Positions 1,452 to 24,909 of a stretch of 64,000 bases of DNA are shown piece after piece. The stretch is from contig NZ_UNOZ01000013.1 in the NCBI RefSeq assembly GCF_900536025.1, positions 124,001-188,000 of the forward strand, read 5' to 3'. Under the pieces are notes generated by a model that saw nothing but the letters and a program-made list of their open reading frames with translations, did not search any database and had not been told where the DNA came from. Source of the DNA: Pseudomonas reidholzensis. Lineage in GTDB: Bacteria; Pseudomonadota; Gammaproteobacteria; Pseudomonadales; Pseudomonadaceae. Each line of letters opens with the position of its first letter. Positions within the stretch are counted from its first letter, which is position 1. The position numbers and the translations under genes are program-made.

Positions 1452-1722
1452 GCAATGCATTCGCGCTTGCATTGCAGCGGGATCGTAGCAAAATTGAGGG
1501 TCATTTCGGATGTCGGTCATGTAGACGGTGGTTTTTGGGCGCCGGCGCTGGCAAGCGAGGGGGGCTGTACCCGCTGCCTGCCGTCAGACGCTATGGGTAG
1601 AGGCGTCAAGAGAGCCTCTTGACTCTCCCTGACACCGGTTGCGATTGAGGATCTGCACCTTCGATAGAGCGGTGCAAGCTTCAACATGACAGATGTTAAC
1701 AACGCTGGAAGGAGCGATTTTT

Positions 1723-2706
1723 TTGAAACTTGTACAAACCCGAATCCCCGATGTCGTCGTCATTGAACCGACTGTGTATGAAGACGACCGTGGCTGGTTC
1801 ATGGAGAGTTTCAACGAGCCCGCTTTCCACGCCGCTTTGCGTGGGCTGGGTTTGCCGCTTCCGCGCCCATTTTTGCAAGACAATCATTCCAGCTCACGCA
1901 AAGGGGTATTGCGGGGGCTGCATTTTCAGCTGGAGCCGCGTGCTCAGGGCAAGCTGGTCCGGGTGATCAAAGGCGCTGCTTGGGACGTTGCTGTTGATAT
2001 CCGCAAGGGTTCGCCTACGTACGGGCAATGGGTTGGAGAGACTCTCAGTGCCCATAACGGCCGCATGATGTGGATTCCCGAAGGCTTTGCCCATGGTTTC
2101 ATCGCGCTGGAGGATGACACTCAGTTCCTCTACAAGAGCACCAATGTCTACAGCAAGGAGCACGAGGGCAGCCTGGCCTGGGATGATCCGGACCTGGCCA
2201 TCGACTGGCCCGACGTCGGGGGGCGGATCATCAGCGAAAAGGACCGAGACGCTGCACCGTTCAAGGGGTTCCCTGGGGTAGAGGTGCCAGCCGCCAACTC
2301 GGACGTGGAAACGTATGGGTTCCGGGTTATCGGTGACGAGCGCGGTAGCCTGATCGCGCTTGAAAGCGCTGGCAGCATCCCGTTCGATGTGAAGCGGGTG
2401 TACTACATTTTCGCTACGCAAAGCGATGTCAGCCGCGGGTTCCACGCCCACAGAGATTTGCAGCAACTGGCTATTTGTGTTTCCGGTAAATGCCGCATGA
2501 CGCTCGATGATGGCACCGTGCGTCAGGACGTGTGGCTGGACTCGCCGGACAAAGGGGTGCTGATCAGAAATCTTATTTGGCGCGAAATGCATGATTTCAG
2601 TGAGGACTGTGTACTTCTGGTGCTCGCCAACGCCCATTACGATGAGACCGACTACATTCGTGACTACCAGACATTCCTGGGGGAAGTAGCAAATGGAAAA
2701 AAATAA
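1723..2706 (+). CDS. Fusion of dTDP-4-dehydrorhamnose 3,5-epimerase (RmlC) and dTDP-4-keto-6-deoxyglucose 3,4-ketoisomerase (FdtA/QdtA/WxcM-like)
   Basis: Two cupin-type sugar-nucleotide enzymes are joined in one 327-residue protein. Residues 1-185 are a full RmlC: RGLHFQ (His67), Lys77, the WIPEGFAHGF block (His124), Tyr137, Tyr143 and Asp174 in ISEKD sit at the spacing of the RmlC catalytic set. Residues about 196-320 are FdtA/WxcM-C-like, with RGFHAHRDL (His241, His243) and conserved tyrosines. The TTG at 1723 is preferred over ATG 1693, because GGAAGGAGCG (1707-1716) is well placed for it and MKLVQT resembles RmlC N-termini. No stand-alone rmlC follows rmlA in this window. The downstream FdtB-like aminotransferase and acetyltransferase fit the FdtA half. 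Whether both halves are active is untested. Confidence 0.85.
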   Translation: MKLVQTRIPDVVVIEPTVYEDDRGWFMESFNEPAFHAALRGLGLPLPRPFLQDNHSSSRKGVLRGLHFQLEPRAQGKLVRVIKGAAWDVAVDIRKGSPTYGQWVGETLSAHNGRMMWIPEGFAHGFIALEDDTQFLYKSTNVYSKEHEGSLAWDDPDLAIDWPDVGGRIISEKDRDAAPFKGFPGVEVPAANSDVETYGFRVIGDERGSLIALESAGSIPFDVKRVYYIFATQSDVSRGFHAHRDLQQLAICVSGKCRMTLDDGTVRQDVWLDSPDKGVLIRNLIWREMHDFSEDCVLLVLANAHYDETDYIRDYQTFLGEVANGKK

Positions 2707-3367
2707 AAAGCTGGTCATTGTCGGGGCGGGTGAGTTGGCGATGATTGCCTACGAGTATTTCACCTACGACTCAAGCTATGAGGTTGTCGGGTTTGCGGTT
2801 GAGCGAGAGTACCTCCGGGAGACCTCCCTGTATGAGCTACCTATCGTGCCGTTTGAAGAACTCGAGGCGTCATTCGCTGTGCATCAGCACGAGGCCTTCG
2901 TGGCGATCCCAGCGTCGGGGCTGAACCGGCTCAGGACGCGCTTGTATGAGGCTGTCAAAGAAAAAGGCTATACCTGCGCCACCTATATCAGCTCCCGTGC
3001 GTTCGTCTGGCGAAACGCCAAGATCGGCGACAATTGCTTCATCTTCGAACACAACACCGTGCAACCATTTGTTGAAATCGGTAATAACGTGATCCTCTGG
3101 AGTGGCAATCACATTGGCCATCGCAGTGTCATTGAAGACAACTGCTTCCTGTCCTCCCATGTGGTTGTTTCAGGCTACTGCAGGATCGGTAATTCCACGT
3201 TCATTGGTGTGAACGCTACCATCAATGATCGCATCAACGTGGCGCGTGACTGCGTCATCGCCTCCGGATCGCTGGTCAACAAGCACCTTCAGGAGCCGGA
3301 GCGTATCTACTACGGCGCGCCCGCCCAAGAGCTGCCGAAGAAAAGCGCCCTCAAGGTCAAATTTTAG
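2693..3367 (+). CDS. Sugar O/N-acetyltransferase, NeuD/PglD-like left-handed beta-helix family
   Basis: Residues 6-95 form the small Rossmann-like domain of NeuD/PglD proteins (KLVIVGAGELAMIAYEYF near the start). Residues about 97-200 are hexapeptide-repeat beta-helix (IGDNCF, IGNNVI, IEDNCF, IGNSTF). His143 in GNHIGHRSVI sits where PglD has its catalytic histidine. The enzyme would transfer acetyl from acetyl-CoA to a sugar nucleotide. It overlaps the end of the fusion gene by 14 bp and lies in the same operon as an FdtB-type aminotransferase, so N-acetylation of a dTDP-3-amino-3,6-dideoxyhexose is a reasonable inference. O-acetylation of another residue is possible. Confidence 0.8.
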   Translation: MEKNKKLVIVGAGELAMIAYEYFTYDSSYEVVGFAVEREYLRETSLYELPIVPFEELEASFAVHQHEAFVAIPASGLNRLRTRLYEAVKEKGYTCATYISSRAFVWRNAKIGDNCFIFEHNTVQPFVEIGNNVILWSGNHIGHRSVIEDNCFLSSHVVVSGYCRIGNSTFIGVNATINDRINVARDCVIASGSLVNKHLQEPERIYYGAPAQELPKKSALKVKF

Positions 3368-3375
3368 GAAGTTGC

Positions 3376-4293
3376 ATGAACTGGAAAAAGCTAGGGCTGG
3401 TGTTTACCCAGGATGGCACGGTGGCCTGGCGGCGTAACTCTGCCCTCACGCCTACGCCGTTTCTTCTGAACGATAACGTCATTCGCGTCTACGCGGGCTT
3501 TCGGGATGATGAAGGGATCAGCCGGATTGGCTATGTCGATGTCGATAGCCGGGACCCAACCCAGGTAATTGGTGTATCCGCCGCGCCGGTACTGGATCGC
3601 GGGCGCGATGGTTGTTTCGATGACAATGGCGTCATTCTCGGCGACGTCGTGCGCGACGGAGACCGCCTGCGGATGTATTACGTGGGGTTCCAGTTGGTGA
3701 AGCGCGCTAAGTTTCTGGCATTCACCGGCCTTGCCGAAAGCACTGACGGTGGGGAGACATTCCAGCGCGTCAGCGAAGCGCCGGTGCTCGATCGCTCGAT
3801 CGAAGGCAACACTATTCGCGCGGTGCACACGGTGCTGTTCGAGGAAGGTGTATGGAAGATCTGGTATGCGGTTGGCGATGACTGGCAGATGATCAACGGC
3901 GTGCCCTATCCAAAATACAACATCTGGTATGCGCAATCCGCCGATGGCAAAGCATTCCCTGCGAACGGGGTGCTGTGCGTCGATGTGGAAGGGGATGAGT
4001 ACCGTATCGGCAGACCCTCTGTCTACAAGACGGCAGACGGTTACATGATGTTCTATACCAAAGGTGGCACCAGTGGTGAGGATTACTTCCCCGGTGTGGC
4101 CTATTCAACGGACGGTGTCCAGTGGCAGCGTCGCGACGCGTCGTTTGGCTTGAGCCTGGGTGAGCAAGGCTTTGATGACCGCCACCTGTGTTACCCGCGG
4201 TTGGTGACGGCCGGACATCGCACGTTCTGTTTCTACAACGGCAACAACATGGGTGCCGAGGGCTTCGGTGTGGCGGAGTTGCTTGAAGCATGA
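3376..4293 (+). CDS. Beta-propeller glycosidase-like protein (GH43/GH130-like fold), function unknown
   Basis: The 305-residue protein has repeated blade-like segments with YxG/YV and WY...SADG patterns (IRVYAGFRDDEG, LRMYYVGFQLV, WKIWYAVGDDW, NIWYAQSADG, YMMFYTKGGTSG, RTFCFYNGNNMGAEGFG). These are typical of five-bladed propellers of the GH43/GH32/GH130 type. There is no signal peptide, so it should be cytoplasmic, which is odd for a hydrolase. It overlaps the next gene by 4 bp (ATGA) and sits between sugar-modifying enzymes. Proteins of this kind in polysaccharide loci may act on sugar-phosphates or lipid-linked intermediates. The fold call is moderate and no function is assigned. Confidence 0.6.
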   Translation: MNWKKLGLVFTQDGTVAWRRNSALTPTPFLLNDNVIRVYAGFRDDEGISRIGYVDVDSRDPTQVIGVSAAPVLDRGRDGCFDDNGVILGDVVRDGDRLRMYYVGFQLVKRAKFLAFTGLAESTDGGETFQRVSEAPVLDRSIEGNTIRAVHTVLFEEGVWKIWYAVGDDWQMINGVPYPKYNIWYAQSADGKAFPANGVLCVDVEGDEYRIGRPSVYKTADGYMMFYTKGGTSGEDYFPGVAYSTDGVQWQRRDASFGLSLGEQGFDDRHLCYPRLVTAGHRTFCFYNGNNMGAEGFGVAELLEA

Positions 4294-5225
4294 AGTGCGT
4301 TGCCTACAGTGCTGAGCATCGTGATGTCTGGGATCAATGGGTGGGTGCGTCGCGCACGCCTCTGTTTTTCTTCAAGCGTGACTTCATGGAGTACCACGCC
4401 GACCGTTTCGAGGATGCTTCACTCCTGTTTTACGACGAGGACGACCTGCTCGCCGTCCTGCCGGCCTCGCGCCATGGCGATGTGCTGAGCAGTCATGGTG
4501 GGCTGACATTCGGCGGCTTGATATTCGGCCCCAAGGTTCGGGCTGATAGCGTGCTGGCAGTGTTCGATAGGCTCGTCGCTCATGCGCGTGAAATGGGCTA
4601 CAGGCGCATTCTGTACAAATCCATCCCGTACATTTTTGCCAGTCAGGGGGCGCAAGAAGACCTCTATGCGCTTACGCGCATAGGTGCGAATCTGGTGCGC
4701 CGCGACCTGTCCAGCGTCATTTACCAAGGCAACCGGCCAAAGATGTCCAAGGGTCGCAAATGGCTGGTCGCGCGTGCGGCCAAGCTAGGCCTGAAAGCCG
4801 AAGTGTCGCAGGACTGGGATCAGTTCCATGACCTGTTGGCTACCGCTCTGCAGCGGCACGGCGCCCAGCCTGTGCACAGCGCCGAAGAGCTCAAGCTGCT
4901 GCAGTCGAGGTTTCCAGACAACATACAGCTCAACGTGATCCTGCATGAACAGCGCATGGTCGCGGGCGCGGTACTGTTCCGTTTTGGCCACGTGACCCAC
5001 ACCCAGTACCTGGCCACCAATGATGAAGGCAAGGATATGGGTGCGCTCGATGCGTTGATCGAGCACTGCATTCGCGAGGGTGAAGAGCGCCGCGAAACGT
5101 TTTTCAGCTTTGGCATATCCACGGAAGACGGCGGCAAGGTGCTCAATTCCGGGCTGATCAATCAGAAAGAGAATTTTGGCGCCCGCGGTATTGTTCTGGA
5201 TTTTTACGAGATCAACATAAATTGA
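4290..5225 (+). CDS. FemAB-like GNAT-superfamily acyltransferase
   Basis: This 311-residue soluble protein has the double-GNAT arrangement of FemAB-related proteins. The N-terminal half contains [24 protein letters not shown], and the C-terminal half contains the acyl-CoA or aminoacyl-binding-like strand-helix unit around [18 protein letters not shown], ending in FSFGIS. Such proteins add amino acids or acyl groups to amino sugars or peptides. ATG 4290 overlaps the preceding stop (ATGA) and its own stop overlaps the start of the aminotransferase, so translation is coupled. It may acylate the 3-amino sugar made by the neighbouring enzymes; this is inference from context. Confidence 0.65.
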
Positions 5226-6322
5226 TTACCTTCCTCGATCTAAAGAAACTGAATGGGGTCTACGCTGCGCAGTTGCGCGAGGCCTGTGCCCGGGTCATCG
5301 AATCGGGTTGGTACATTGGGGGGCAGGAACTGGCTGCCTTCGAGCAAGAGTTTGCCGCCTATTGCCAGGCCGAGCACTGCGTCGGCGTGGCCAATGGCCT
5401 GGACGCGTTGACCCTTACGCTTCGCGCCTGGAAGGAACTGGGGTTGCTGCGTGAAGGCGACGAGGTCATCGTACCGGCAAACACCTACATCGCCAGTGTC
5501 CTGGCGATCACCGAAAACCGCTTGATACCCGTGCTGGTCGAACCGGACGCTGGCACCTACAACCTGTCTGGCGCAGGCGTGCAGGCTGCGCTGACCGAAC
5601 GCACCAAGGCGGTAGTGGCCGTGCACCTTTACGGTCAAATGGCCGAAATGCCAGCAATCATGGACCTGGCCAAGGCCAATGGCCTGCTGGTGCTCGAAGA
5701 TGCTGCGCAGGCTCATGGCGCCAGCATAGAGGGTCGCAAGGCGGGAACATGGGGGCATGCAGCGGGCTTCAGTTTCTATCCTGGCAAGAACCTCGGTGCG
5801 CTCGGCGATGCGGGTGCGATGGTGACCCATGATGCGCAATTGGCCAAAATGGTTCGCGGCCTGGGTAATTATGGGAGTTACCGCAAGTACGAAAACGCGT
5901 TTCAGGGGGTGAACAGCCGTCTCGATGAAATCCAGGCCGCGATGTTGCGGGTCAAGCTCGAGCACCTGGACCAAGAGATAGCGGCACGCCGTCAGGTTGC
6001 CGACAGTTATCTGCAGGGCATTGATAATCCGCTCATCCAGCTGCCCCAGGTCACTGCTGGTGAAGCGCACGTATGGCATCTGTTCGTCGTGCGCTGTGAG
6101 CGTCGCGACGAACTCCAGCGTTTCCTTCAGGAGCAGGGTGTACAGACCCTCATCCATTATCCCATCCCGCCTCACAAGCAGCAGGCGTATGCCGAATATG
6201 CTGCGTTGACGTTGCCGTTGACGGAGGTCATCCACGAACAAGTGCTGAGCTTGCCGATCAGTCCGGTGATGAGCGAAGACGACGTGAAAGCCGTCATCTG
6301 CGCCGTTAACGCTTTTTCCTGA
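5222..6322 (+). CDS. DegT/DnrJ/EryC1/StrS aminotransferase, probably FdtB/QdtB-like (dTDP-3-keto-6-deoxyhexose 3-aminotransferase)
   Basis: This is a PLP-dependent sugar aminotransferase of 366 residues, the usual family length. Lys189 in [17 protein letters not shown] is the Schiff-base lysine, Asp160 and Gln163 ([10 protein letters not shown]) contact the cofactor ring, and VANGLDAL is the phosphate-binding loop. It should aminate the 3-keto sugar released by the FdtA half of the fusion at 1,723-2,706, giving dTDP-Fuc3N or dTDP-Qui3N. The start is TTG 5222, overlapping the upstream stop (TTGA); the Shine-Dalgarno is weak, consistent with translational coupling. Whether the product is galacto or gluco cannot be decided from sequence by eye. 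Confidence 0.85.
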
Positions 6323-16759: not shown

Positions 16760-17830
16760 ATGACTATTCTCGTTACCGGCGGTGCCGGGTTCATCGGCGC
16801 CAACTTCGTGCTCGACTGGGTTGCTCAATCCGACGAGCCTGTGATCAATCTCGACCTGCTGACCTACGCGGGCAACGTACAGACCCTTTCCAGCCTGGAG
16901 GGTAACCCGCAGCATGTCTTCCAACAGGGTGATATCGCCGACTCTGAGCTGGTCAAGCGTCTGCTCACCGAGCACCAGCCGCGCGCCGTGCTCAACTTCG
17001 CTGCGGAGTCGCACGTGGACCGCTCCATCCATGGCCCGGAAGACTTCATCCAGACCAATATCGTTGGGACCTTCCGCCTGCTCGAAGAGGTGCGTGCCTA
17101 CTGGAAAGACCTGCAAGGGGAGGCCAAGGATGCATTCCGCTTCCTGCACGTTTCCACTGATGAGGTCTACGGATCGCTGGCCGCTGACGCGCCGGCCTTC
17201 ACCGAAGAACACCGCTACGAGCCCAATAGCCCCTATTCGGCGAGCAAGGCGGCGAGCGATCACCTGGTGCGCTCCTACCACCACACTTACGGGCTGCCGG
17301 TCCTGACCACCAATTGCTCGAACAACTATGGCCCATATCACTTCCCCGAGAAGTTGATCCCGCTGATGATCGTCAATGCGCTGGCTGGCAAGCCGCTGCC
17401 GGTATACGGCGACGGTCAGCAGATTCGTGACTGGCTTTACGTCAAGGATCACTGCAGTGCCATTCGCCGGGTGCTTGAAGCAGGCCGTACGGGGGAGGTG
17501 TACAACGTCGGGGGCTGGAACGAGAAGCCCAACCTGGAAATTGTCGAACGTATCTGCGGCCTGCTGGACACGTTGCGCCCACGCGCTGATGGCCAGCCCT
17601 ATGCAGGGCAGATCGCCTACGTCACTGACCGTCCGGGACATGATCGCCGGTACGCCATCGACGCCCGCAAGCTTGAGCGTGAGCTTGGCTGGAAGCCCGC
17701 CGAAACTTTCGAAACCGGTATTCGCAAGACCGTCGAGTGGTACCTCGACAACTGGCAATGGGTCGAGAATGTGCAGTCCGGCAATTACCGGGATTGGGTC
17801 GAGAAGAATTACAGCGGGCGTTCGGCATGA
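16760..17830 (+). CDS. rmlB: dTDP-glucose 4,6-dehydratase RmlB
   Basis: An SDR of 356 residues with the standard RmlB set: VTGGAGFIGANFV, NFAAESHVDRSI, the catalytic TDEVYG (Thr-Asp-Glu) and PYSASKAASDHLV (Tyr-x3-Lys), and RDWLYVKDHC near the C-terminal part. It converts dTDP-glucose to dTDP-4-keto-6-deoxyglucose, which can feed both L-rhamnose synthesis and the FdtA/FdtB 3-amino branch. The stop overlaps the rmlD start (ATGA). Confidence 0.96.
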   Translation: MTILVTGGAGFIGANFVLDWVAQSDEPVINLDLLTYAGNVQTLSSLEGNPQHVFQQGDIADSELVKRLLTEHQPRAVLNFAAESHVDRSIHGPEDFIQTNIVGTFRLLEEVRAYWKDLQGEAKDAFRFLHVSTDEVYGSLAADAPAFTEEHRYEPNSPYSASKAASDHLVRSYHHTYGLPVLTTNCSNNYGPYHFPEKLIPLMIVNALAGKPLPVYGDGQQIRDWLYVKDHCSAIRRVLEAGRTGEVYNVGGWNEKPNLEIVERICGLLDTLRPRADGQPYAGQIAYVTDRPGHDRRYAIDARKLERELGWKPAETFETGIRKTVEWYLDNWQWVENVQSGNYRDWVEKNYSGRSA

Positions 17831-18723
17831 AAATTCTGCTGTTAGGCAGAAACGGCCAGGTCGGATGGGAGTTGCAGCGCAGCCTTGCCCCATTGGGCCA
17901 GGTGCTTGGGCTGGATTCCCGGAGCCGGGATTATTGTGGTGACCTGGCTGACCTTGCAGGGCTTGGCGCAACGCTGCGCAGTTATGCACCCGACGTGATC
18001 GTCAATGCGGCGGCGTACACGGCGGTAGACAAGGCAGAGTCAGAGCCTGAGCAGGCGTTTCGGGTAAATGCCGAAGCGGTCTCGGTGCTCGCCCATTACG
18101 CGGCCGCCAGTGGTGCCCTGCTGGTGCATTACTCGACTGACTATGTGTTCCCCGGGCAGGGTACTGAGCCGTGGCGTGAGGGCAACCCCACCGGCCCGCT
18201 CAACGTCTACGGTGAAAGCAAGCTGGCTGGGGAGCAGGCGATTCTCGTTGCGGGTTGCGCGCACCTGATCCTGCGCACCAGCTGGGTCTATGCGGCGCGT
18301 GGTAACAACTTTGCCCGCACGATGCTGCGCCTGGCTTCGGAGCGCGAGACCCTGGGCGTCATCGATGATCAGTTTGGTGCGCCTACCAGCGCCGAGCTGA
18401 TCGCCGATGTGAGCGCCCACGCGATCGTCGCCGCACGCCGCGATCCGGCCTTGAGTGGGGTCTATCATCTGGCTGCGGCGGGTGAAACCAGCTGGTGCGG
18501 CTATGCTCGTTTTGTGCTGCAACAGGCTTCGGCTCGCGGCGTGGTATTGAAGGTTCTGGCCGAACAGGTCAATGCGTTGACCACCGAGGCCTACCCGACC
18601 CCAGCGAAGCGGCCAGCCAACTCGCGACTGAACACTCAGAAACTGCAGGAAGCTTTTGCCCTGGTGTTGCCGGACTGGCGTCTGGGCGTGGCAAGAATGC
18701 TGACCGAAATACACGAGAAGTGA
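17827..18723 (+). CDS. rmlD: dTDP-4-dehydrorhamnose reductase RmlD
   Basis: A 298-residue NAD(P)H-dependent reductase that completes dTDP-L-rhamnose. KILLLGRNGQVGWEL is the dinucleotide site, DVIVNAAAYTAVDKAE is the RmlD signature, HYSTDYVFPG carries the Thr and VYGESKLAGE the Tyr-x3-Lys. The frame is open further upstream, but ATG 17827 overlaps the rmlB stop and gives the normal N-terminus. It is followed 6 bp later by rmlA. Confidence 0.96.
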   Translation: MKILLLGRNGQVGWELQRSLAPLGQVLGLDSRSRDYCGDLADLAGLGATLRSYAPDVIVNAAAYTAVDKAESEPEQAFRVNAEAVSVLAHYAAASGALLVHYSTDYVFPGQGTEPWREGNPTGPLNVYGESKLAGEQAILVAGCAHLILRTSWVYAARGNNFARTMLRLASERETLGVIDDQFGAPTSAELIADVSAHAIVAARRDPALSGVYHLAAAGETSWCGYARFVLQQASARGVVLKVLAEQVNALTTEAYPTPAKRPANSRLNTQKLQEAFALVLPDWRLGVARMLTEIHEK

Positions 18724-18729
18724 TCGATT

Positions 18730-19611
18730 ATGAAACGTAAAGGCATCATCCTCGCGGGCGGCTCGGGCACCCGTCTGCACCCGGCAACCCTGTCGATATC
18801 CAAGCAATTGCTGCCGGTCTACGACAAACCGATGATCTACTATCCACTGACCACGCTGATGCTGGCGGGGATTCAAGACATCCTGATCATCTCCACCCCC
18901 CAGGACACGCCGCGTTTCGAGCAACTACTGGGTGACGGCCATCAGTGGGGGATCAACATCTCCTATGCGGTGCAGCCATCGCCGGATGGCTTGGCGCAGG
19001 CGTTCCTGATCGGTGAGCAATTCATCGGTAATGACTTGTCGGCGCTGGTGCTGGGCGACAACATTTTTTATGGCCATGATTTCCAGCTACTGCTGCGCAA
19101 CGCCATGGTCCGCAGTGACGGCGCGAGTGTCTTCGCCTACCACGTGCAGGATCCCGAGCGCTACGGCGTGGTGGACTTCGATCAGCACGGCAAGGCCAGC
19201 AGCCTCGAAGAGAAACCGGCGCAACCCAAGTCCAACTATGCCGTCACCGGTTTGTACTTCTATGACAAAGACGTGGTTGAGATCGCCAAGGGCATCAAGC
19301 CGTCCCCACGCGGCGAGTTGGAAATCACCGACCTCAACCGTGTTTACCTCGAGCAGGGGAGGTTGTCGGTCGAGATCATGGGCCGTGGCTACGCGTGGCT
19401 GGATACCGGAACTCATGACTCATTGCTCGAGGCCAGTGGTTACATCGCCACGATCGAGCGCCGGCAAGGGTTGAAAGTCGCTTGTCCGGAGGAGGTGTCC
19501 TTCCGTCAGGGATGGATCGATGCGGCCCAGCTTGAAGCGTTGGCTGCGCCGTTGTCGAAGAATGGCTATGGCCAGTACTTGAAGCGTCTGCTGCAGGACA
19601 GGGTCTACTGA
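18730..19611 (+). CDS. rmlA: Glucose-1-phosphate thymidylyltransferase RmlA
   Basis: This 293-residue nucleotidyltransferase makes dTDP-glucose. [11 protein letters not shown] is the nucleotide-binding signature, [17 protein letters not shown] follows, LGDNIFYGH binds metal and sugar, and [16 protein letters not shown] closes the active site. Length is normal. In many Pseudomonas rmlC follows directly; here it is followed by almost 900 bp without a recognisable gene, so the operon ends as rmlBDA. Confidence 0.96.
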
Positions 19612-20430: not shown

Positions 20431-20459
20431 TTGTTATTTATCGCCTTCCTGTGTATTAT
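20431..20459 (+). promoter_or_regulatory. Sigma70-like promoter upstream of wbpA
   Basis: TTGTTA (20431-20436), a 17-bp spacer and TATTAT (20454-20459) match the -35/-10 layout. Transcription would begin near 20466, which supports the ATG at 20508 rather than the longer reading from GTG 20451. The surrounding AT-rich stretch is the first marked composition change of the second half of the island. Confidence 0.5.
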
Positions 20460-20507
20460 TTAAACAATTTTTCACTTGACTTACTAGACTTGGAAGCGGA
20501 ACTCCTG

Positions 20508-22837
<2,330 letters not shown>

Positions 22838-23242
22838 CGATAGTTGCTGGGTGGCCCGGCGTGACCACCCAAGCCCGAAAACGTGAGTGCTCGATAGGTC
22901 GGGGAAACCTGGCCAGTAGCGAGTGTAGACCCGGTATCGGTCGTGCTCACGTTTTTCAGGTTCAGGGTGCCCCAGTATCACGCGTATAGTACAAAGCGCC
23001 TCATTGAGTACGCTGCCGTTCGAGTGTCAGCACGTCACTACTTCAGCACCCAATTGTGTCTAGCGTGTGCGCGGATGCTGGATTTTCCCGCGGTCAAGTC
23101 AGTGTGTGGGTAGTCGCACGCTGTACCACTGTGGGTTGGCCGGGTTGGCGTTTCGGCGTTGGACGGCTAAAGGTGCCGATGAGTCGAAGGTCGCGGCGCC
23201 GCATGCGCTCAATCAATATCAGTCTCGTGTGAGTTCCTTATC
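22838..23242. other. Gene-free gap where wbpC stands in P. aeruginosa O5
   Basis: This 405 bp between wbpB and wbpD has no ORF with recognisable features. It contains an inverted repeat TGGGTGG (22848-22854) / CCACCCA (22865-22871) just after the wbpB stop. In the O5 wbp cluster the acyltransferase gene wbpC lies between wbpB and wbpD, so the gap may mark its deletion; no clear wbpC fragment can be read. Confidence 0.55.
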
Positions 23243-23824
23243 ATGAACTATTTTCAGCATCCCAGTGCAATTGTCGATGAAGGCGCCCAGATCGGCAGTG
23301 ACTCGCGAATTTGGCACTTTGTACATATATGTGGTGGTGCCCGAATCGGCGAGGGCGTTTCGCTCGGCCAAAATGTCTTCGTGGGAAACAAGGTTGTCAT
23401 TGGCGATCGGTGCAAAGTCCAAAATAACGTATCGGTCTATGACAATGTGACATTGGAAGAAGGCGTATTTTGTGGCCCCAGCATGGTCTTCACCAACGTT
23501 TACAACCCACGCTCCCTGATTGAACGCAAAGATCAGTACCGCGCGACCGTGGTCAAGAAAGGGGCGACCTTGGGTGCTAATTGCACAATTATTTGCGGTA
23601 TCACCATTGGTGAATACGCGTTTGTGGGTGCTGGCGCGGTGATCAACAACGATGTCCCAGCCTACGCGCTGATGGTGGGCGTGCCGGCTAGGCAGATTGG
23701 CTGGATGAGCGAGTTTGGTGAGCAATTGGAGTTGAGCGACCGGGGGGAAGCCGTCTGCGCTCATTCGGGGGTGCGGTACATGTTGAAGGACAATATCTTG
23801 AGTAAAGTGGAGATATCAGGGTGA
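23243..23824 (+). CDS. wbpD: UDP-GlcNAc(3NH2)A N-acetyltransferase WbpD
   Basis: A hexapeptide-repeat acetyltransferase of 193 residues that converts UDP-GlcNAc3NA to UDP-GlcNAc3NAcA using acetyl-CoA. Left-handed beta-helix repeats run through residues 10-150 ([54 protein letters not shown]), and [16 protein letters not shown] is the WbpD/WlbB C-terminal signature. Its stop overlaps the wbpE start (GTGA). Length and order match P. aeruginosa WbpD. Confidence 0.92.
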
Positions 23825-24909
23825 TAGAGTTTATTGATCTGAAGGCTCAGCAATCGATACTTAAGACAAAAATTGATGCGGGCATCCAGCGGGTCCTCGA
23901 GCATGGGCAGTACATCCTTGGGCCAGAGGTCGAGCAGCTCGAAGCACAGCTTGCCTCCTTTGTTGGCGCTAAATATTGTATTACCTGTGCCAATGGTACC
24001 GACGCCCTGCAGATCGCCCAAATGGCACTGGGTATCGGTCCTGGCGATGAAGTGATTACCCCAGGTTTTACCTACATAGCGACCGCAGAGACAGTTGCTC
24101 TACTGGGAGCTAAGCCGGTGTATGTGGACATCGATCCCAACACGTACAATTTGAATCCGGCGCTTCTCGAAGCCGCGATTACTCCCCGTACTAAAGCTAT
24201 TATCCCGGTTTCGCTGTATGGGCAATGTGCTGACCTCGATGCGATTAATGCCATCGCGGCTAAGCATGGAATTGCCGTTATTGAGGATGCCGCGCAGAGC
24301 TTTGGCGCCACCTACCGCGGAAAACGCTCGTGCAACGTATCGACAATTTCTTGCACAAGCTTTTTCCCAAGCAAGCCGCTTGGCTGTTACGGTGATGGTG
24401 GGGCGATTTTCACCAATGATGACGAATTGGCCATCATTCTTCGTCAGATCGCCCGGCACGGCCAGGATAGACGCTATCACCACATCCGTGTAGGCGTGAA
24501 TAGCCGACTGGATACGCTGCAGGCTGCTATTTTGCTACCAAAGTTGGAGATTTTTTCGCAAGAACTCCAGCAACGCCAAGAGATAGCACTGCACTACAGC
24601 CGGCAGCTCAGTGACGCCGGCTTTGTTCCCCCGCATATCGAAGCACACAACCAAAGTGCGTGGGCGCAGTTCACCGTGCAGGTGGCTGACCGGGGCCAGG
24701 TACAAGATAAACTGAAGACCTTCGGTATCCCCAGTGCTGTGCACTACCCTATACCGCTCAATAAGCAGCCCGCCGTAGCGGATGCGTCCATCAGCTTGCC
24801 GGTTGGCGACGCGGTTGCGGGGCGTGTGCTGAGCCTCCCCATGCATCCGTATTTGACAACTGAAGATGTCGAGCGGGTGGTCCAGGCGCTCCAGCGTGCG
24901 TGCAGCTGA
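23821..24909 (+). CDS. wbpE: UDP-3-keto-GlcNAcA 3-aminotransferase WbpE
   Basis: A PLP-dependent DegT/DnrJ family aminotransferase of 362 residues. Lys185 in [15 protein letters not shown] is the PLP lysine, at the residue number reported for P. aeruginosa WbpE. Asp156 ([10 protein letters not shown]) and CANGTDAL complete the cofactor site. It works with WbpB in a coupled cycle and its product is acetylated by WbpD. The GTG start overlaps the wbpD stop. Confidence 0.93.

Follow-up and report, generated by a model that had tools for sequence, protein, structure and literature searches.

A recurrent gene fusion of predicted RmlC and FdtA enzymes at the fork of two dTDP-sugar pathways in Pseudomonas

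The stretch of 64,000 nucleotides from Pseudomonas reidholzensis analysed here (the window) contains a gene that joins RmlC and FdtA, two enzymes acting at the same metabolic fork, in one predicted protein. Judged from sequence, the fusion is real and it recurs; two enzymes that are well known are joined in a surprising arrangement, while the parts themselves are ordinary. RmlC and FdtA share the substrate dTDP-4-keto-6-deoxy-D-glucose, which is the product of RmlB. RmlC catalyses epimerisation at C3 and C5, and RmlD then leads to dTDP-L-rhamnose; FdtA shifts the keto group to C3, and FdtB is the aminotransferase of the 3-amino-sugar branch. O antigens that contain L-rhamnose together with D-Fuc3NAc are known from P. 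syringae. We consider it likely that the fusion is a bifunctional branch-point enzyme with halves working in parallel, that it stems from a merged rmlC-fdtA gene pair, and that in this strain it adds a further RmlC to the housekeeping one.

The fused gene and its two domains

Domain profiles and alignment place the fused gene at positions 1723..2706 of the plus strand, with a TTG start and 327 amino acids. The open reading frame is uninterrupted from 1693 to 2706 and would encode 337 amino acids from the ATG at 1693 or 327 from the TTG at 1723. Since a Shine-Dalgarno-like motif read from the sequence (GGAAGGAG, 1707..1714, plus strand) precedes the TTG, and since an alignment of 12 fusions has a methionine in the relatives at the place of this TTG or at most two residues away, TTG 1723 looks like the better start. 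Residue numbers below refer to the 337-residue form, which is the numbering of the 327-residue form plus 10.

The RmlC domain (dTDP-4-dehydrorhamnose 3,5-epimerase; 1735..2262, plus strand, residues 15-190) matches PF00908 with 240.1 bits (cut-off 27) and passes the NCBIfam RmlC equivalog TIGR01221 (243.0 versus a cut-off of 155.75 bits). The FdtA domain (sugar 3,4-ketoisomerase; 2302..2682, plus strand, residues 204-330) matches PF05523 with 160.0 bits (cut-off 23), and its HAH histidine pair (251/253) is intact. Both profiles being above cut-off, the preliminary description was right that a single frame carries a complete RmlC and a complete FdtA. The six RmlC residues that it listed as His67, Lys77, His124, Tyr137, Tyr143 and Asp174 are all present; they correspond to H77, K87, H134, Y147, Y153 and D184, which we take to be the catalytic residues of RmlC. 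A profile search of the fusion (E up to 0.001) returned PF00908 and PF05523 and no acetyltransferase domain of the kind found in FdtD/WxcM. Among the NCBIfam models, only those for the RmlC half recognise the protein.

An AlphaFold model of the fusion, based on the 12 aligned fusions, had a mean pLDDT of 79.3 and a pTM of 0.55; residues 185-197 and 201-217 were below a pLDDT of 50. Because of the pTM value, the mutual placement of the halves in the model is unreliable. Taken singly, the modelled RmlC half superimposes on 1dzr over 178 residues with an rmsd of 1.6, and the FdtA half on 2pa7 over 132 residues with an rmsd of 2.3. His251 and His253 align with residues that were altered in the FdtA mutants 2pae, 2pak and 2pam. 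The positions that separate FdtA from QdtA give mixed signals: Arg217 of the fusion corresponds to the Arg of FdtA as against the Tyr of QdtA, and Arg297 to the Arg of QdtA as against the His of FdtA (structure 4zu7 is described as QdtA Y17R/R97H). At the second of these positions other loci have Arg or His, with and without RmlC alike. A prediction of the amino sugar from these determinants was dropped for both reasons, and with R217 and R297 mixed, a galacto or gluco product (the configuration at C4) is not readable from the sequence.

The rml genes of the strain and the neighbours of the fusion

Downstream of the fusion, the plus strand of the window carries rmlB (16760..17830; TIGR01181, 501.4 bits), rmlD (17827..18723; TIGR01214, 333.9 bits) and rmlA (18730..19611; TIGR01207, 525.1 bits), each above the equivalog cut-off. 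As had been described, this group lacks an rmlC: tblastn with two RmlC queries over the 64-kb window found no RmlC or rmlC remnant besides the fusion. The genome as a whole has two PF00908 matches, the fusion and an intact rmlC on another contig (C30:430388-430894), which sits in a complete rmlB-rmlA-rmlC-rmlD operon (L003; order from the open reading frames). Thus rmlC is not missing from this strain. Of the two findings that the preliminary description named as evidence against its idea, a second intact rmlC is present, while the conserved residues argue here against the other, a lack of epimerase activity. The earlier idea that the fusion replaces a missing rmlC does not apply to the genome of the window, and it does apply to relatives that have no other RmlC than the fused or adjacent one (15 of 33 cases, see below). 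By its sequence the strain carries two sets of rml genes, a "housekeeping" rmlB-A-C-D operon and the rmlB-D-A genes of the O-antigen locus with the fusion as putative C. A relative without the fusion (G360) has a similar rmlB-D-A group, 86, 73 and 84% identical to that of the window, followed directly by rmlC (L141).

The 3′ end of the fused gene is overlapped by a gene at 2693..3367 (plus strand) for an acetyltransferase of the NeuD/PglB/VioB family (TIGR03570, 184.9 versus 160.8 bits), a candidate N-acylating enzyme. A DegT/DnrJ aminotransferase gene at 5222..6322 (plus strand; PF01041, 357.5 bits) is a candidate fdtB, and its relatives adjoin FdtA in other loci that were fetched. Window positions 2693-6322 form a cassette of the NeuD-type acetyltransferase, a GH130-like protein (39.5 bits to the beta-1,2-mannobiose phosphorylase model, cut-off 450), a FemAB/GNAT-like protein and the aminotransferase. 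The cassette recurs in loci with and without RmlC, and its content hints that the amino sugar bears an unusual N-acyl group. After rmlA, a second sugar cluster (20451-24909) contains a nucleotide-sugar dehydrogenase, a weakly Gfo/Idh-like protein and a PseC-like aminotransferase, which looks wbpA/B/E-like and suggests a route to a diamino-uronic acid.

Distribution, origin and conservation of the fusion

PF05523 matched in 121 of 398 Pseudomonas genomes, in 108 of them above cut-off and in several barely. We searched for PF00908 in the 46 genomes (the strain's own included) that have a strong FdtA match in a frame of at least 293 residues. RmlC and FdtA share one frame in 12 of these 46, which is 12 of the 398 genomes (G000, G265, G217, G315, G103, G368, G174, G390, G323, G186, G250 and G033). 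For the stand-alone FdtA loci from the Pseudomonas scan, rmlC lies directly upstream in 8 of 51 (L179, L180, L183, L187, L190, L191, L194 and L195). In one further genome (G216, C2:153314-153693) the FdtA match runs over two overlapping frames, probably a frameshifted gene. A scan of named genomes, in which 80 of 101 loci were kept, added fusions from further Pseudomonas and from three species of Legionella (L039, L043, L046). It also added unfused pairs from a MAG of Paucimonas, one of Moraxellaceae and other sources. The gene order in L039 and L043 is rmlB-rmlD-rmlA-fusion-...-fdtB, with the fusion in the place that rmlC takes in an rmlBDAC operon. In the Legionella genus sample of G401, PF05523 matched in 3 of 45 genomes and was above cut-off in two, G401 itself (fused) and G424 (a 328-residue frame), so the fusion is rare in this genus. 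Among plasmids, 691 records matched the fusion query. Within the best 10 of these 691, two covered at least 80% of the query, and neither is a fusion: both are stand-alone rmlC genes after rmlA in Rhizobium. The alignment extends past the rmlC gene in both, and in L206 rmlC is in pieces.

The unfused pairs suggest how the fusion came about. In 15 of 15 pairs, of which 13 are distinct, the stop codon of rmlC and the start codon of fdtA overlap or adjoin (ATGA, GTGA, TAATG), and in all 15 fdtA is in frame +2 relative to rmlC. The fused gene probably arose by merger of two such overlapping genes; the pair would have been translationally coupled, and a short insertion or deletion near the junction would join rmlC and fdtA. 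In a tree of the concatenated halves the fusions fall into two groups, which requires 2 changes (a single change in 4% of 200 bootstrap trees), and in the AU test on this tree one fusion clade is not rejected against two (p 0.279).

For a comparison of fused and adjacent genes we used 33 cases (20 fused, 13 adjacent) that are distinct in the FdtA segment, after removal of 9 rows with identical segments. The fused or adjacent RmlC is the sole PF00908 match of the genome in 15 of them, 7 fused (G315, G174, G401, G404, G405, G406, G408) and 8 unfused (G391, G296, G191, G252, G032, G007, G411, G416); of these, the MAGs G411 and G416 may be incomplete. RmlD is above the equivalog cut-off in all 15 (in the RmlD check, G174 appears as G409 and G191 as G413). 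Considering this retention of RmlD and the presence of RmlC in 393 of the 398 Pseudomonas genomes, the fused or adjacent RmlC very probably serves L-rhamnose synthesis in these bacteria. Two of them have, at another place in the genome, rml operons of the order rmlB-rmlA-rmlD that lack C (L139 5992-8961 in G174; L197 from 7101 onward on the minus strand in G413), and here the only RmlC of the genome adjoins or is joined to FdtA. The six RmlC residues are intact in 31 of the 33 cases, including all 15 with a sole RmlC, and the FdtA HAH is intact in 33 of 33. With RmlD kept beside a sole RmlC and both active sites conserved, the comparison supports the earlier proposal that one protein may serve both branches.

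The two exceptions are fusions with a damaged RmlC half, and both genomes have another RmlC. In G033 (L126 9404-10393, minus strand) the RmlC half has H77R, K87N, Y147C and Y153R, with H134 and D184 kept, and in G250 it has Y147C; the residues checked in the FdtA halves are all kept. Between these two fusions pN is 0.137 for the FdtA halves and 0.354 for the RmlC halves. Pfam still matches the RmlC half of G033 (144.9 bits), which is a candidate pseudoenzyme half. Degraded RmlC halves next to conserved FdtA halves suggest that the FdtA half can function without catalysis by the RmlC half attached to it, and active-site losses in 2 of 33 cases mean that bifunctionality would not be universal among the fusions. 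Loss of residues was not significantly linked to having another RmlC (0 of 15 sole versus 2 of 18 not sole, Fisher p 0.49, the two cases being related). To see whether the RmlC half is relaxed in genomes with another RmlC, the identities of the two halves were compared: on average the RmlC half exceeded the FdtA half by 7.4 in the 15 sole and by 4.6 in the 18 other cases (one-sided Mann-Whitney p 0.014, kinship ignored).

Action of the two halves and comparison with known systems

In the arrangement that we favour, the two halves would act in parallel on the common RmlB product. The RmlC half would epimerise it at C3 and C5 for RmlD, giving dTDP-L-rhamnose; the FdtA half would move the keto group to C3 and thus supply the aminotransferase encoded at 5222-6322, giving a dTDP-3-amino-3,6-dideoxyhexose that is probably N-acylated by the product of 2693-3367. 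In the genome of the window the fusion would be the RmlC of the O-antigen locus. What the sequence shows are domains, residues, neighbourhoods, frames and trees; we infer the presence of both activities, the resulting sugars, how the genes fused and a possible gain from fixed 1:1 expression.

A joining of two genes by frameshift or assembly error is extremely unlikely. A small shift near the overlap of an unfused pair would suffice to create such a frame, but the 20 distinct fused cases come from separate assemblies of Pseudomonas and Legionella, and the nearest relative (L036), 80% identical to the window protein, is fused as well. It is also unlikely that the RmlC half of the window protein is a non-catalytic scaffold and that FdtA alone works. 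By sequence this is the likely state in G033 and possibly in G250, which both have another RmlC, as does the genome of the window, and because of this second rmlC the RmlC half may be dispensable here. However, all six RmlC residues of the window protein are intact, and the comparison with L036 shows similar constraint on the two halves (pN 0.138 for RmlC and 0.131 for FdtA, pS about 0.7 for both). A doubtful but possible variant is a flux divider: the fusion would set a fixed branch ratio at the dTDP-4-keto-6-deoxyglucose pool, matched to an O-antigen repeat that requires both sugars, and where another RmlC exists, the RmlC half would be freed from catalysis and could become a pseudoenzyme scaffold for FdtA (compare G033).

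The preliminary description had also offered action in series, in which the RmlC half forms a 4-keto-L-rhamnose intermediate, the FdtA half isomerises it and a 3-amino-3,6-dideoxyhexose of L configuration leaves the aminotransferase. The domain order of the fusion fits this scheme, and the presence of some RmlC in all tested genomes with FdtA (46/46, 19/19 and 50/50) leaves room for it. Moreover, in some loci rmlA adjoins rmlC-fdtA-fdtB and the fetched flank contains neither rmlB nor rmlD; these include unfused (L060, L065, L072, L179, L190, L191, L195) and fused cases (L040, L041, L044, L045, L124). Nevertheless, RmlD is encoded elsewhere in 4 of 4 tested genomes with rmlA-rmlC-fdtA loci (G413, G391, G296, G032). 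FdtA and FdtB also occur without a neighbouring RmlC: some rmlB/rmlA-fdtA-fdtB loci lack rmlC (L163, L172, L173, L182, L186), and in others the acetyltransferase-GH130-like-FemAB-fdtB cassette accompanies a stand-alone FdtA, the stretch that was fetched containing no rmlC (L196, L160, L153-L155). Trees of FdtA and FdtB mix sequences from loci that have RmlC with sequences from loci that lack it. For the FdtA tree (136 columns), 8 changes of the label "RmlC-associated" are required. As this tree is weakly resolved, an FdtB tree was added (a short search; L167 was dropped as it has no fdtB match, and 4 WxcM-type rows were left out), in which the label needs 11 changes. A single clade of the 33 RmlC-associated rows against the 42 others was rejected for FdtB (lnL 151.9 lower, AU p 2.2e-6); the well supported FdtB branches alone force just 2 label changes, so it is chiefly the AU test that supports this mixing. 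L168 lies inside the adjacent-pair clade in both trees, yet has no rmlC at its locus. L156 (G284 C118) was counted as "no RmlC", a label that is unsure, as the short contig with its fdtA also carries, next to this gene, a 55-residue RmlC fragment, which may be a remnant or an assembly break. The G033 fusion, with its degenerate RmlC half and intact FdtA half, also speaks against the series. Together with the published pair of Salmonella Dakar, these observations make action in series very unlikely.

In the O28 cluster of Salmonella Dakar (rmlB-rmlD-rmlA-orf2.9-rmlC-fdtA-fdtB), as given in parts of PMC2905691, rmlC immediately precedes fdtA as in the window; rmlC (3884-4435) and fdtA (4428-4829) overlap by 8 bases, but encode two separate proteins. 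The Dakar O antigen contains rhamnose and Quip3NAc, with the configuration unstated in those parts, and in the authors' scheme rmlABCD account for the rhamnose, the amino sugar being made from the product of RmlA and RmlB (PMC2905691). The same parts describe S. Pomona O28 as having fdtA and fdtB without rmlC and rmlD; the Results passage on the Dakar pair names S. Pomona, and from the table and the Discussion it is clear that S. Dakar was intended (PMC2905691). In an E. coli O cluster, fdtA, fdtC and fdtB follow rmlB, rmlD and rmlA with rmlC distant, and according to the authors fdtA, fdtC and fdtB together with RmlA and RmlB lead to dTDP-D-Fuc3NAc (PMC9705854).

The N-terminal half resembles RmlC/RfbC of Salmonella (1DZR) and P. 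aeruginosa (1RTV/2IXI) in fold (Z 28.0 and 27.4), equivalog score and active-site residues, but those enzymes stand alone, while here RmlC is joined to a ketoisomerase. Likewise, the C-terminal half resembles FdtA of Aneurinibacillus (2PA7) and QdtA of Thermoanaerobacterium (4O9E) in fold (Z 19.7 and 19.1) and paired histidines, and differs from them by the fusion to RmlC and the mixed product determinants. FdtD/WxcM of Shewanella denitrificans (4MZU) is also bifunctional with a C-terminal FdtA half; its partner half, however, is an N-acetyltransferase of the same pathway, whereas the partner in the window protein is the first enzyme of a competing pathway. A literature search covering titles and the starts of abstracts, with few subscription journals included, found no paper on an RmlC-FdtA fusion.

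The gene illustrates cleanly how a fusion can form at a metabolic fork instead of along a pathway, and its stages are visible together: the overlapping pair, the fusion, the fusion as sole RmlC and the fusion with one decayed half. It also calls for care in annotation. As NCBIfam recognises the RmlC half alone, the amino-sugar branch can be hidden, and the absence of a separate rmlC need not imply the absence of L-rhamnose.
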